Part shown: one piece after another, positions 4,937-25,209 of the stretch
Layout: each line of letters starts with the position of its first letter
Numbering within the stretch: the stretch's first letter is position 1
Source of the DNA: Lachnospiraceae bacterium
GTDB taxonomy: Bacteria; Bacillota; Clostridia; Lachnospirales; Lachnospiraceae
DNA: 64,000 nt
Direction of reading: 5' to 3'
Assembly (NCBI GenBank): GCA_017482205.1
Contig: JAFUNK010000024.1
Span: 1 to 64,000, forward strand
Notes under the pieces: model-generated
What the model was told of the DNA's origin: nothing
The model's database searches: none
The model's input: the letters and a program-made list of their open reading frames with translations, nothing else
Position numbers and translations under genes: made by a program

Positions 4937-5130
4937 GTTGCCATTAGTTAGATTTTTCTGCCGATTGTAAAAAGTTTCTTTGCAGACGTGCTCTCGCTCC
5001 ATGAGAAACGTAGCGGACACTAAGCTCGAAACCTTCTCTGCGAGAAGTCTTCTTGCTAAGTGCCGACGTTTCCCAAGGGTCTGCGTCAGAAAGCTTTTTA
5101 CAACCGACAGACAATCTAACCAAAGGCAAC
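4937..5130 (+). repeat. Long-hairpin element, copy A (fabD-fabG gap)
   Basis: This is a 194-nt near-perfect inverted repeat. The outer arms begin GTTGCC and end GGCAAC, and about 50 bases on each side pair, including a TTGTAAAAAG block. The core (4982-5084) contains CTCTCGCTCCATGAGAAACG, then a CGGACAC/GTGCCG helix, an apical CTTCTC-TGC-GAGAAG hairpin and CCAAGGGTCTGC. Copies B (19097-19274) and C (23737-23913) share the core but have unrelated outer arms. The element ends 27 bases before the fabG start, so it lies in the mRNA between fabD and fabG. Confidence 0.8.
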
Positions 5131-5156
5131 AGTCCTCACACGAAAAGGAGCATGAC

Positions 5157-5897
5157 ATGTTAAACGGTAAAGTAGCATTAATCACCGGTGCAAGCCGTGG
5201 TATCGGTAAAGAAATCGCACTCACCTTTGCTTCCTATGGTGCAAAGGTAGTGGTAAACTACAACGGTTCCAAAGAAAAAGCAGATGAAGTAGTAAAAGAA
5301 ATCGAAGCAATGGGTGGCGAAGCAATTGCAATCCAATGTTCCGTAGCAGACTATGAAGCTTGCGGTAATATGGTAAACGAAGCCATTGCAAAATTCGGCA
5401 AGGTAGATATTCTGGTAAACAACGCAGGTATCACCAAGGACAATCTGGTTATGAAAATCAGCGACGAAGATTTTGATGCTGTTATCGACACCAACTTAAA
5501 GGGAACCTTCAACTGTATCAAGCAGTTGTATCGTCCTTTCTTAAAGCAGAGAAGCGGACGTATTATCAATATGACTTCCGTAACCGGTATCTTAGGTAAC
5601 GCGGGTCAGGCAAATTACGCAGCCAGCAAGGCAGGCGTAATCGGTCTCACCAAGAGTGTGGCAAGAGAACTGGCAACCAGAGGTATCACCGTCAATGCCA
5701 TTGCACCGGGCTTTATTGCAACCGAGATGACCGATGCCATGACGGATGCCGCAAAACAGGCAGTACTGTCCCAGATTCCTTTGGGCAGAGTAGGCAACAC
5801 CAAGGATATTGCAGAAACCGCAGCATTCTTGGCAAGTGATAAGGCAGCTTACATTACCGGTCAGGTGATTTCCGTAGACGGCGGCATGTATATGTAA
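5157..5897 (+). CDS. fabG: 3-oxoacyl-ACP reductase (FabG)
   Basis: FabG is the NADPH-dependent short-chain dehydrogenase that reduces beta-ketoacyl-ACP. The 246-residue protein has the nucleotide loop GASRGIG (11-17), NNAG (88-91), and the catalytic set Ser141, Tyr154 and Lys158 in YAASK. It ends with ISVDGGMYM, as is usual for FabG. The ATG at 5157 follows AAAAGGAG. The frame is open further upstream through the hairpin element, but that extension is arginine-rich and not protein-like. Translation may respond to the hairpin that ends 27 bases upstream. Confidence 0.94.
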
Positions 5898-6016
5898 AAG
5901 GACAGTGCCGTGGCACATGGAGTAAGTAAATGTGGCACGGGACAGTATAGTTCAGCCCGTGGCAAAGAACGATTGAAATAAGCAGGAATTGACATAAGTG
6001 AAAAAGGAGAAGTAGA

Positions 6017-7252
6017 ATGAGTAGAAGAGTTGTTGTAACAGGTATGGGTGCCATTACCCCCATCGGTTTATCAGTAGAAGAATTTTGGGAGAGTGTAAAA
6101 GCAGGCAAGACCGGCTTTGCACCGATTACCAAATTTGATGCCAGCGAATATAAGTGCCATATCGCAGCAGAAGTAAACGGCTTTGACGGCAAGAATTACA
6201 TGGATTTCAAGGCTGCAAAGAGAATGGAGCTGTTCTGCCAGTATGCAGTAGCGGCAACTAAGGAAGCTTTGGAAGATGCCGGTCTGGATATGGAAAAAGA
6301 AGACCCGTTCCGTGTAGGTGTTTCCGTAGGTTCCGGTATCGGTTCCTTACAGGCAATGGAAAGAGAACATCAGAAATTATTGGAAAAAGGACCTTCCCGC
6401 GTGAATCCTCTGTTAGTACCTATGATGATTTGTAACATGGCAGCAGGTAACGTATCCATTCAGTATGGTTTAAAAGGTAAGAGCATTAACGTAGTAACCG
6501 CTTGTGCAACCGGTACAAACTCTATCGGTGAAGCGTTCCGTGCTATCCAGTATGGTGAAGCAGATGTGATGGTGGCAGGCGGTACAGAAAGCAGCGTTAC
6601 CCCTATCGGTATTGCAGGATTTACCGCACTGACCGCACTGAGCAGTTCCGATGACCCGGCACGTTGTTCCATTCCTTTTGATAAAGAACGCAGTGGCTTT
6701 GTTATGGGTGAAGGTTCTGCGGTTGTTATTCTGGAAGAATTAGAGCATGCAAAGGCTCGAGGCGCAAAGATTTATGCAGAAGTAGCAGGTTACGGATGTA
6801 CCTCCGATGCATACCATATCACCTCTCCCGCAGAGGACGGCTCCGGTGCGGCAAAGGCTATGGAATATGCAATTATGGATGCAGGTATTGCAAAAGAAGA
6901 GATTACCTACATCAACGCACACGGTACCAGCACACACCACAACGACCTGTTTGAAACCAGAGCAATCAAGCTGTTGTTTGGTGAGCACGCAAACAATATT
7001 AAAATCAACTCTACCAAGTCCATGGTAGGTCACCTTTTAGGTGCAGCAGGTGCACTGGAATTTGTAACCTGTGTAAAGGAATTGGAAGACGGCTTTATCC
7101 ACAAGACCGTAGGTTATCAGGTGCCTGATGAAGAATGTGATTTGGATTACTGCAAGGAATCCGTAGAAGGTGAATTTACCTATGCACTTTCCAACTCTTT
7201 AGGTTTTGGCGGACACAACGCAAGTATCATCGTAAAGAAATATACAGAGTAA
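6017..7252 (+). CDS. fabF: 3-oxoacyl-ACP synthase II (FabF)
   Basis: FabF is the condensing enzyme for chain elongation. The 411-residue protein has the thiolase-fold triad Cys163 (TACATGTNS), His302 (NAHGTSTHHND) and His339 (KSMVGHLLGAAG), plus a C-terminal SNSLGFGGHN loop. The ATG follows AAAAAGGAGAAG. The 119-base gap after fabG contains an imperfect GTGGCAC-type hairpin but no clear terminator, so fabD to fabF are probably co-transcribed. Confidence 0.95.
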   Translation: MSRRVVVTGMGAITPIGLSVEEFWESVKAGKTGFAPITKFDASEYKCHIAAEVNGFDGKNYMDFKAAKRMELFCQYAVAATKEALEDAGLDMEKEDPFRVGVSVGSGIGSLQAMEREHQKLLEKGPSRVNPLLVPMMICNMAAGNVSIQYGLKGKSINVVTACATGTNSIGEAFRAIQYGEADVMVAGGTESSVTPIGIAGFTALTALSSSDDPARCSIPFDKERSGFVMGEGSAVVILEELEHAKARGAKIYAEVAGYGCTSDAYHITSPAEDGSGAAKAMEYAIMDAGIAKEEITYINAHGTSTHHNDLFETRAIKLLFGEHANNIKINSTKSMVGHLLGAAGALEFVTCVKELEDGFIHKTVGYQVPDEECDLDYCKESVEGEFTYALSNSLGFGGHNASIIVKKYTE

Positions 7253-19096: not shown

Positions 19097-19274
19097 TTGT
19101 TGCTAATGGCGTGCTTCGTTCTCGGTGAAAAAAGTTTTCACACAGACTCGCTCTCGCTCCATGAAAAACGTAGTTGGTGCTAAGCTCGAAAAAACCTCGC
19201 TAACACCAACGTTTTCCAAGGGTCTGTGACTGAAAAGCTTTTTTCACCGAGAACGAACAAGCCCTTCACAACAA
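19097..19274 (+). repeat. Long-hairpin element, copy B (transketolase leader)
   Basis: This is a 178-nt inverted repeat. The outer arms start TTGTTG and end CAACAA. They include a long CGTTCTCGGTGAAAAAAG block that pairs almost perfectly across the element and is unrelated to the arms of copies A and C. The core (19141-19228) shares CTCTCGCTCCATGAAAAACG, CTAAGCTCGAAA and CCAAGGGTCTG with copy A. The inner helix is TTGGTG/CACCAA here instead of CGG-CAC/GTG-CCG, which is a compensated change. It ends 22 bases before the transketolase start. Together with 18977-19096, in which I see nothing else, it fills the gap after the divergent DUF885 gene. Confidence 0.8.
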
Positions 19275-23663: not shown

Positions 23664-23736
23664 AAGGCGGCGTAATATGTGGTTGGAAAATAATTTATAA
23701 TAATACCATAAAAATCCTTTTTTCACTCGTACCTAT

Positions 23737-23913
23737 ATAAAGAAGAGGTTAAGAGTTTGCATATAGTATCCAGCGAAGATCCTTGTGAAACGTCGGCACT
23801 TAGCAAGAAGACTTCTCGAAGAGAAGTTTTCGAGCTTAGTACCGTTACGTTTCGCATGGAGCGAAAGCGGGTCTGAGAGGGATACTATATGCAAACGACA
23901 AAGAACTCTTTAT
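23737..23913 (-). repeat. Long-hairpin element, copy C (serpin leader)
   Basis: This is a 177-nt inverted repeat. The outer arms include a perfect GTTTGCATATAGTATCC block and start ATAAAGA / end TCTTTAT. The core is the same family as copies A and B but on the opposite strand: read in reverse complement it shows CATGCGAAACGTAACGG, CTAAGCTCG and GACGTTTCAC, with an apical ACTTCTC-GAA-GAGAAGT hairpin like that of copy A. The inner helix differs from copy A by a change that keeps pairing as G-U. The element ends 15 bases before the serpin start, next to its AAGGAGG. Confidence 0.8.
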
Positions 23914-23928
23914 CAAGGAGGAACGATT

Positions 23929-25209
23929 ATGAAAAAAGGATTTTTATCGTTATTATTAGGAATTTGTATGATAACCGGACTGGCAGGCTGCGGAGAAAAA
24001 AAGAACATTCCCGAACCTGCATATGATATTGATAACGAGGAAGAAGAATACACCTGGCAGGAACCTGTGATACAGGGGGATGCAAGTGTATTACGAACCG
24101 GCGTCAATGCTTTTGCCTATGAAATGTATGACCACTTAGAAGCAGGGGAGGATTTGTTTTTCTCGCCTTACAGTCTTTGTACGGCATTGTCTTTGTTGAA
24201 CGTAGGTGCAGGAAGTGATACCAAGGCAGAGCTGGAAGAAATGCTGGGAATAGAGGATATGGGCACCTGGAATGCGGCTATGAGAGTTTACCTTAATGCA
24301 GAGTGGCCTAAGGAAACCTTTGTGCTGACAGCTAATTCTGTCTGGTTACAGACGGGCTATGAATGGGCGCCAAACATCGAAACAGAGTTTTTACAGCCTG
24401 CGGGCTATTATTATATGAGTGAAATGTACGAAGTGGATTTTGATAATGAGCCACAGGATGCGGTAGATAAAATGAATGCATGGGCAGATGACAATACCCG
24501 GGGCATGATACCTGAAATTATGAAAAAAATACCGGACGATACGGTGCTGGCACTGATGAATGCTGTGTATTTTGAGGGCAAGTGGGCGGAGCCTTTTTTA
24601 GAGGATAAAACCCGCGAAAGAACCTTCTACGGTACTGATGGGGAAAAGCAGGTGGAAATGATGCACCAGTACGGCGAGTCCTACGCTTACGTGGAAATGG
24701 ATGGTATGAAGGGCATTTCCCTGCCTTATAAGGATGCTGACGTAGTGATGAAAATATTTATTCCCTTAGAAGACGGTACGGATATTGAAACATTGTTTAA
24801 TGCCCTCAGCATAGAAGAAAAAGAGGCACTGTTGGACAGTCTGGATACAGCCGGTCGGGAAACAATGGATTCCCTTGTTATACCTAAGTTCAGCATGGAA
24901 AAAGAGATTACCGGTTTAAATGGTATTTTGCAGGATATGGGTATGGAAGCAGCATTTTTGCCGGATGCGGATTTGGATGTAATCGGAGAAGACCTTTATG
25001 TAACGGATGTATTGCACAAGGCTAAGATTGAGGTGGACGAAGAGGGAACCACGGCTGCGGCAGTTACCGTAATCATAACCGCTGATACCTGTGCAATGCC
25101 GGTAGAAGAGCCCAAGAATTTTATAGCAGACAGACCCTTTGTATATGTATTGCAGGATACTGAAACAGGTATGATACTGTTTATGGGACGTGTGAATAAT
25201 CTGGAGTAA
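23929..25209 (+). CDS. Lipoprotein serpin (serine protease inhibitor)
   Basis: The 426-residue protein has a lipoprotein signal with lipobox LAGC (Cys21). A complete serpin fold follows: FSPYSLCTALSLLNVGAGSDT, NAVYFEGKWAEPF, and a late FIADRPFVYVLQD strand. The reactive-loop hinge reads VDEEGTTAAAVT, small-residue rich as in inhibitory serpins. Counting from the hinge puts the scissile bond near ADTCAM. It is expected to trap serine proteases at the cell surface, perhaps host elastase-like enzymes. The ATG at 23929 follows AAGGAGG. Upstream in-frame sequence lies inside hairpin copy C and is not protein. Confidence 0.9.
   Translation: MKKGFLSLLLGICMITGLAGCGEKKNIPEPAYDIDNEEEEYTWQEPVIQGDASVLRTGVNAFAYEMYDHLEAGEDLFFSPYSLCTALSLLNVGAGSDTKAELEEMLGIEDMGTWNAAMRVYLNAEWPKETFVLTANSVWLQTGYEWAPNIETEFLQPAGYYYMSEMYEVDFDNEPQDAVDKMNAWADDNTRGMIPEIMKKIPDDTVLALMNAVYFEGKWAEPFLEDKTRERTFYGTDGEKQVEMMHQYGESYAYVEMDGMKGISLPYKDADVVMKIFIPLEDGTDIETLFNALSIEEKEALLDSLDTAGRETMDSLVIPKFSMEKEITGLNGILQDMGMEAAFLPDADLDVIGEDLYVTDVLHKAKIEVDEEGTTAAAVTVIITADTCAMPVEEPKNFIADRPFVYVLQDTETGMILFMGRVNNLE

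Follow-up and report, generated by a model that had tools for sequence, protein, structure and literature searches.

A probably MITE-like hairpin family of Lachnospiraceae with a constant core and arms that differ from copy to copy but remain complementary within each copy

The window (the whole stretch of Lachnospiraceae DNA analyzed here, 64,000 nucleotides in length) contains three copies, A, B, and C, of a long hairpin element. A reading of the three stretches and an inverted-repeat search revealed that all three are long quasi-palindromes built around a common core. The parts of the three copies, with the scores of their cores against a covariance model of the family (R1), are as follows.

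4937..4982, plus strand: left arm of copy A, with a degenerate TIR-like TGTTGCC, a variable helix, and the conserved GTAAAAAGTTTCTTTG
4983..5083, plus strand: conserved core of copy A with its apical hairpin (R1, 105 bits; the sequence is itself in the model)
5084..5130, plus strand: right arm of copy A, the complement of its left arm
19097..19142, plus strand: left arm of copy B
19143..19226, plus strand: core of copy B, with a shortened apex (R1, 76.6 bits; the sequence is itself in the model)
19227..19274, plus strand: right arm of copy B
23692..23775, minus strand: arm of copy C lying 3' of the minus-strand core, its outer part (23692-23723) repeating the beginning of a serpin gene in inverted and decayed form
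23776..23875, minus strand: core of copy C (R1, 102.6 bits; the sequence is itself in the model)
23876..23964, minus strand: other arm of copy C, which extends beyond the ribosome-binding site and into the first serpin codons (ATG at 23929)

A preliminary description had placed three copies with a shared core here and had claimed that their outer arms pair within each copy. Both points were borne out, the arms by the inverted-repeat search and the cores by the R1 scores listed above, which are partly high by construction because all three sequences belong to the 38 copies from which R1 was built (A, B, and C plus 35 more). For copy C, the pairing was confirmed but reaches farther than had been claimed, with the outer pairing extending to 23692-23723 / 23933-23964; the outer 65 nt gave a pairing score of 26, which was matched by none of 5000 mononucleotide shuffles. 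Relatives of the serpin gene were at best ~60% identical, and the DNA upstream of them was judged not comparable for the state that preceded copy C. All three copies lie upstream of plus-strand genes, and copy B is flanked by divergent ORFs.

The element is about 170 to 210 bp in length and non-coding. From the outside in, it is composed of a terminal helix, then in several lineages an asymmetric loop (TTGTCA or AAGTCA on the left, TTCGAAAC or TGAAAGC on the right), a variable helix, the core loops, and a variable tip. Inward of the variable helix, the loop CGCTYTCGCTCC stands opposite AAGG and is followed by a further variable helix, H2; inward of H2 come CGYARCGG / CCGRCG with a two-base bulge, TAAG / CTAAG with an A-A mismatch, and the variable tip. 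Conservation is highest in the loops of the element, and the helices vary. It amounts to at least 95% at most positions of CGCTYTCGCTCC and CGYARCGG among 111 aligned matches, a figure that is inflated because copies were found via the core, many of them by a motif-bearing pattern. Change between orthologues amounted to 3.5%, 5.2%, and 2.7% in the loops versus 7.0% in the flanks, a difference of little weight since the loops served to pick the copies.

The ends of the element differ by lineage. The terminal sequence is GGGGCTGTTGCAAAATAG in the genome of the window (G000) and TAGGTAATTGCGAAAC in the sister species G014 and G072, and single copies gave CAATGTCATTTAG in G028 and TCAGTCAGC at locus L112. 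A TIR-like pattern was counted 32 times in G000, 57 times in G072, and 66 times in G014, versus 0, 3, and 2 times in the reversed control. By eye, the commonest arm of G000 carries GTTTCCGAAT..GTTTG on both sides, and the arms of G014, G072, and G059 instead carry the asymmetric TTGTCA / TTCGAAAC. Short palindromes that have the terminal sequence of the window family and no core, some of them terminator-like, were also found (L040-L045, L046, L049, and L050). As a separate observation, a hairpin insertion of ~20 bp (CAAAGTCATGC..GCATGACTT) is present on one side of the core tip in L121 and L173 and missing from the orthologue.

The preliminary description had left the existence of further copies to a covariance-model search, and such copies proved to be numerous. 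BLAST with copy A in its own 2.16-Mb draft genome (73.7% complete) gave 53 matches, which collapsed to 40 places, and R1 matched 99 of the 138 genomes of the genus (E 0.01), with up to 29 matches counted per genome. The G000 alignment took 37 loci plus window copy B; the right half of L019 is missing and L033 is truncated by a contig end, and later counts for this genome refer to 35 places, with L019, L028, L029, L033, and window copy B left out. When 391 genomes were drawn class-wide and stricter filters were applied, R1 matched 11 of the 16 genomes of the same family and 0 of the 375 outside it, family being taken from the order of listing. The exact core pattern occurred in at least 113 stretches of named records, and the 80 titles listed are mostly Lachnospiraceae bacteria; they include Acetatifactor, Butyrivibrio, Blautia, Roseburia, Fimimorpha, and [Clostridium] symbiosum, all of which we take to be Lachnospiraceae. 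One metagenome bin among the listed matches is titled Muribaculaceae and is taken as mislabelled or mixed.

No named relative of the family emerged, in keeping with the preliminary description. A known RNA family was rejected, as Rfam gave no match in the window at the gathering score and, on eight loci, just three matches below that score, all to miRNA families and regarded as chance. An origin from a phage, plasmid, or virus was likewise rejected, copy A and the exact core pattern matching nothing in the phage, plasmid, and viral contig collections. No description of the hairpin family was found in a search of open-access literature, which is not proof that none exists.

The arms had been described as unrelated between copies, which is true of a few copies and not of most. 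Only the arms of L036, L038, and L039 bear no resemblance to the commonest arm of G000, while 35 of the 38 G000 copies, copies A and B among them, resemble it on one or both sides, scoring beyond the 99% level obtained with shuffled arms. In five of these 35 the margin is narrow, with best scores of 12 or 13 for a limit of 11 (L011, L012, which is copy C, L022, L023, and L037). The resemblance in 35 copies argues that the arms descend from one common arm and drift in step. In G000, the best partner of the left arm was the right arm of its own copy in 31 of the 35 copies (median score 33 versus 11), as it was in 10 of the 10 copies of G028. This preference was rarer where the arms are still alike: 16 of 56 copies in G014, 10 of 51 in G072, 1 of 8 in G059, and 40 of 78 mixed loci, the copies of G014 and G072 having arms in common. 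At 70 to 120 nt from the core, the two sides of a copy paired with each other no better than with the sides of other copies in G000, G014, G072, and the mixed loci. Since pairing stops near the element ends in most copies, the arms normally belong to the element.

The manner in which the arms change was examined between G014 and G072, on the basis of 40 stretches, none longer than 20 kb, and of 8-kb loci. Of the 29 shared sites, 23 were parsed and six skipped, several of the six resembling false hits in coding DNA; flank divergence at the shared sites was 1.3 to 22.7%, with a median of 5.3%. Over 48 nt of arm and 766 scorable paired positions, one side alone had changed at 121 and both sides had changed with pairing preserved at 17 (in 9 of the 23 site pairs), where 1.6 double changes were expected under independence; 300 more positions were paired in neither species. 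The 5-bp inner helix H2 showed 11 double changes in four site pairs versus 0.07 expected. The double changes are clustered in blocks of up to four positions and therefore represent few events, not 28.

Intermediate and inverted states were observed as well. Half-converted helices have CTTAC opposite CCAGT (L254) and CTAGC opposite CCAGC (L245), and in one of the 23 shared copies (L234:9595 versus L286:9139) the interior is inverted while the flanks and the outermost repeats are collinear. Arm homogenization and spacer inversion have been given as the two outcomes of template switching between inverted repeats (PMC8604942), and template switching is also stated to be able to create and maintain RNA stems (PMC8794818). 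The inner-helix alleles CTTAC, CCAGC, and CTAGC recur in many copies, so exchange between copies must also act; these alleles speak for between-copy exchange no less than for template switching inside one copy.

Evidence for mobility came from orthologous sites that hold a copy in one species and are empty in the other. Thirteen candidate empty sites in the sister species were aligned, and three of them were clear (L234:16763 versus L286, L277:15107 versus L230, and L288:2832 versus L242), and these three contain no arm sequence. By eye, the copy at L234:16763 is flanked by TTCTTTTCC / TTCCTTCCC, where L286 has a single TTCTTTCCC. The other 10 sites were remnant-leaving deletions (for example, L241/L256 and L258/L239), ambiguous cases, or unreadable alignments.

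Flanking direct repeats were scored in copies with both terminal repeats (47 of 56 in G014, 43 of 51 in G072). The best flanking 9-mer match was at least 7 in 26% of the 47 G014 copies and 35% of the 43 G072 copies, compared with 5% after shuffling, and the direct-repeat peak in both species is consistent with a length of 9 bp and one additional base at either end. Exact flanking 9-mers were seen at L064, L065, L091, L234, L251, L261, and L112 and, at an odd position, at L140; in L091 and L065, from other lineages, different terminal sequences have an exact 9-bp repeat outside them. Exact 9-mers were rare in every group (2/8 in G059, 1/10 in G028, 2/56 in G014, and 1/50 in G072) and at the chance level in the mixed loci (2/76, 3% versus 2%). 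G000 showed no excess of flanking repeats, with 14 of 35 copies usable; exact 9-mers were found in 0/35 copies and, with one mismatch allowed, in 17% versus 20%.

No pair of terminal repeats surrounds a gene-sized interior in G014 or G072 (up to two mismatches), and neither a transposase nor an autonomous copy was found among the terminal-repeat pairs of these two genomes or in a search for PF13751 and PF01609 in five genomes. Transposases of the IS1182 type (PF13751) and of PF01609, present in one and three of the five genomes, were judged unlikely mobilizers. Draft genomes often lose full-length transposase-encoding elements. We use the label MITE-like because the full-length transposase partner was not seen. 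Independently of the family, L162 carries 1.5 kb (5145-6641) that L213 lacks; the matches on either side seem to overlap by 9 bp, and the inserted stretch is perhaps an insertion sequence.

Neighboring cores are arranged in a constant manner when they are close. Among R1 hits on 167 loci, from which 21 redundant pairs were dropped, cores whose starts lie within 520 bp of each other were convergent in 20 of 20 non-redundant pairs, while pairs farther apart occurred in every orientation. Loci with close pairs include L183:2420-2858, L228, L233, L238, L250, L256, L258, and L283. By eye, many close pairs form a second hairpin class, with GCRAGTCACGCC outside and GGCTGAAA inside. The two cores of one pair often resemble different subtypes, and most cores are single, the 15 close pairs accounting for 30 of the 138 cores in G014 and G072. 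Wider convergent pairs were noted around a single small gene at L117:643-1671 (carbonic anhydrase), L222:9181-9992 (DUF3781), and L160:2245-2974 (no Pfam match). A second hairpin family, centered on GGGCTCCGAAGCAGTGGCAAGTCGCCCTTATTTTGTC and with similar terminal repeats, adjoins or separates cores at L107, L138, L147, L183, and L254, and both arms of such a hairpin differ in step between the sister species at L107/L123.

Taken together, these results establish a family whose many copies are interspersed in the genome and, at some orthologous sites, present in one species and absent from the other. The unpaired core loops of the family are strongly conserved, and its arms change together. We consider it probable that the element is a non-autonomous, MITE-like mobile palindrome of one bacterial family, whose arms are homogenized at the DNA level after insertion by a transposase acting in trans. 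We hypothesize that such insertion makes a target duplication of ~9 bp and that the inserted copy, a long quasi-palindrome, would fold during replication. A polymerase could then switch template from arm to arm and thereby carry a mutation over to the partner arm, and exchange with other copies would supply alternative arm blocks. The outcome would be arms that diverge between copies and yet remain complementary inside each copy. By the same process, the interior may flip and the centre may be lost, and occasional copying beyond the element end could produce an inverted copy of the neighboring DNA, as in copy C. The copy-specific complementary arms are thus most likely a trace left by homogenization at the DNA level. 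The asymmetric core loops would persist despite it; their strong conservation suggests that the core is probably read in its folded state, by a putative factor that may recognize it as single-stranded DNA, a cruciform, or RNA. A more specific and rather speculative version has mobile DNA defined by its core, where an enzyme would read the loops, the ends would need only self-complementarity, template switching would maintain it, and the convergent pairs would be a larger, gene-carrying form.

The covariation of the core is what most readily suggests an RNA. Both sides changed in 19 of the 22 core pairs (108 distinct sequences), with none of 500 shuffles as high; 95.4% of core cells are paired, and the covariation score is 0.375 versus 0.124 for shuffled data, all in an alignment fitted to the model. 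The covariation test proposed at the outset was therefore positive, and the inner helices do keep pairing while their bases change. This covariation does not decide between RNA and DNA because DNA-level palindrome correction gives the same signal. A structured RNA, that is, a leader or small RNA on a repeat in which compensatory changes are selected for transcript folding, would also agree with the conserved internal loops and with the location of the three window copies upstream of plus-strand genes. At one core pair (A2 columns 38/156), 32 of 104 sequences have T-G and none has A-C, as expected of a functional RNA, and the arms of G014 lean to G-T over A-C, 31 to 8. However, the arm mismatches over six groups comprise 89 G-T, 80 A-C, and 121 transversions, with no overall strand preference and with single groups leaning either way (1 to 11 in G028). 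The core mismatches, 46 G-T and 37 A-C, include 32 G-T on that one pair, and without it 14 G-T and 37 A-C remain in 2194 cells. Close relatives differ by blocks in both arms, and one interior is inverted in place. Codirectional genes run with and against the core in 24 and 14 cases in G014, 20 and 20 in G072, and 8 and 5 in G000, so that no steady orientation is seen. Since G-T and A-C are about equal in the arms and gene orientation is unsteady, a DNA-level explanation suits the arm pairing better, and selection on one RNA, which fits the arm data worse than arm homogenization, is the less likely cause. The "selected RNA fold" of the preliminary description thus survives in the covarying helices and not as the cause of arm pairing. 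We regard a selected structured RNA as a rather unlikely explanation of the family, while it is possible that the core is read as RNA.

Three other explanations were weighed. Transposition through a single strand, in which the folded core is the recognition hairpin, the arms need only pair, and convergent cores form the ends of a REPIN-like unit, agrees with a constant core between terminal sequences that differ by lineage and with the convergent close pairs, including the class with GCRAGTCACGCC and GGCTGAAA; inverted REP doublets are the unit that has been proposed for REPINs (PMC3116915). The Y1 transposase domain PF01797, however, was found in 45 of the 138 genomes of the genus and in only three (G017, G036, and G100) of the 15 with at least 29 copies, on which grounds membership in the RAYT/REPIN system was rejected, and it is absent from G000, G014, G072, and G028. 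The ~9-bp target repeats of G014 and G072 are, to our knowledge, not expected of the Y1 transposase class. Paired cores also differ often in subtype and most cores are single, and this explanation seems improbable to us. Still less probable is that each insertion writes new arms by inverting target DNA, even though copy C holds an inverted copy of the adjoining gene start, the arms of L036, L038, and L039 are unlike the commonest arm, and two of the 10 G028 copies (L085 and L087) pair past the usual end. Traces of one arm are kept in 35 of the 38 G000 copies, the copies of G014 and G072 share arms, pairing ends close to the element end in most copies, and the three clear empty sites are without arm sequence. 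As a general rule, the writing of new arms is therefore unlikely, and the earlier suggestion of inverted target flanks applies to copy C and a few others. An equally remote explanation is that the core inserts into the tips of pre-existing palindromes such as terminators. The terminal repeat does occur on short palindromes that have no core (L040-L045), and among the 25 of 35 G000 copies with both neighbors called, 12 lie between convergent, 13 between codirectional, and 0 between divergent genes, a count without window copy B, whose neighboring ORFs are divergent; given their terminal A and T runs, the G000 copies may double as terminators. Against tip insertion, the hairpin centered on GGGCTCCGAAGCAGTGGCAAGTCGCCCTTATTTTGTC has lost its centre in L109 and retains it in the intact orthologue L138, so that core-less forms can be deletion products, and the terminal repeat and a common spacer in the arms are shared with core-bearing copies.

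The reading as a mobile palindrome with homogenized arms places the family near several known systems. It resembles the MITEs of bacteria in being short, non-coding, TIR-bearing, and present in many copies (~40 places in its own genome) with empty orthologous sites. A table entry gives 167 bp for bcr1, a Bacillus cereus group element described as a mobile stem-loop repeat (PMC2267715), and the hairpin family, likened to it by description and not by sequence, is likewise interspersed, at most a few hundred bases long, and a stem-loop. It differs from MITEs in that an internal core is constant across species while the terminal sequences turn over and the arms diverge in step. Palindromic units and inverted pairs at short distance are common to this family and to REPINs or BIMEs (REP doublets with a RAYT transposase), whereas here each unit of ~200 bp is a complete hairpin and, in two lineages, has flanking repeats of ~9 bp. 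Integron attC sites are imperfect palindromes with conserved extra-helical bases and a variable tip, features found here too, and the hairpin family differs from them by its long outer arms. Multi-base compensatory changes, arm homogenization, and spacer inversion are shared with template-switch evolution, which has been described for RNA genes and yeast coding DNA (PMC8794818, PMC8604942); here the process would operate on a whole family of bacterial mobile palindromes.

The family thus provides a natural many-copy series in which the correction of palindrome arms can be followed between close relatives, with flipped and half-converted states included, and it indicates that covariation alone is not proof of a functional RNA where the DNA is a long palindrome. 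The strictly convergent arrangement of close core pairs is new and, together with a constant core and changing ends, calls for a putative recognizing factor in these common gut bacteria.
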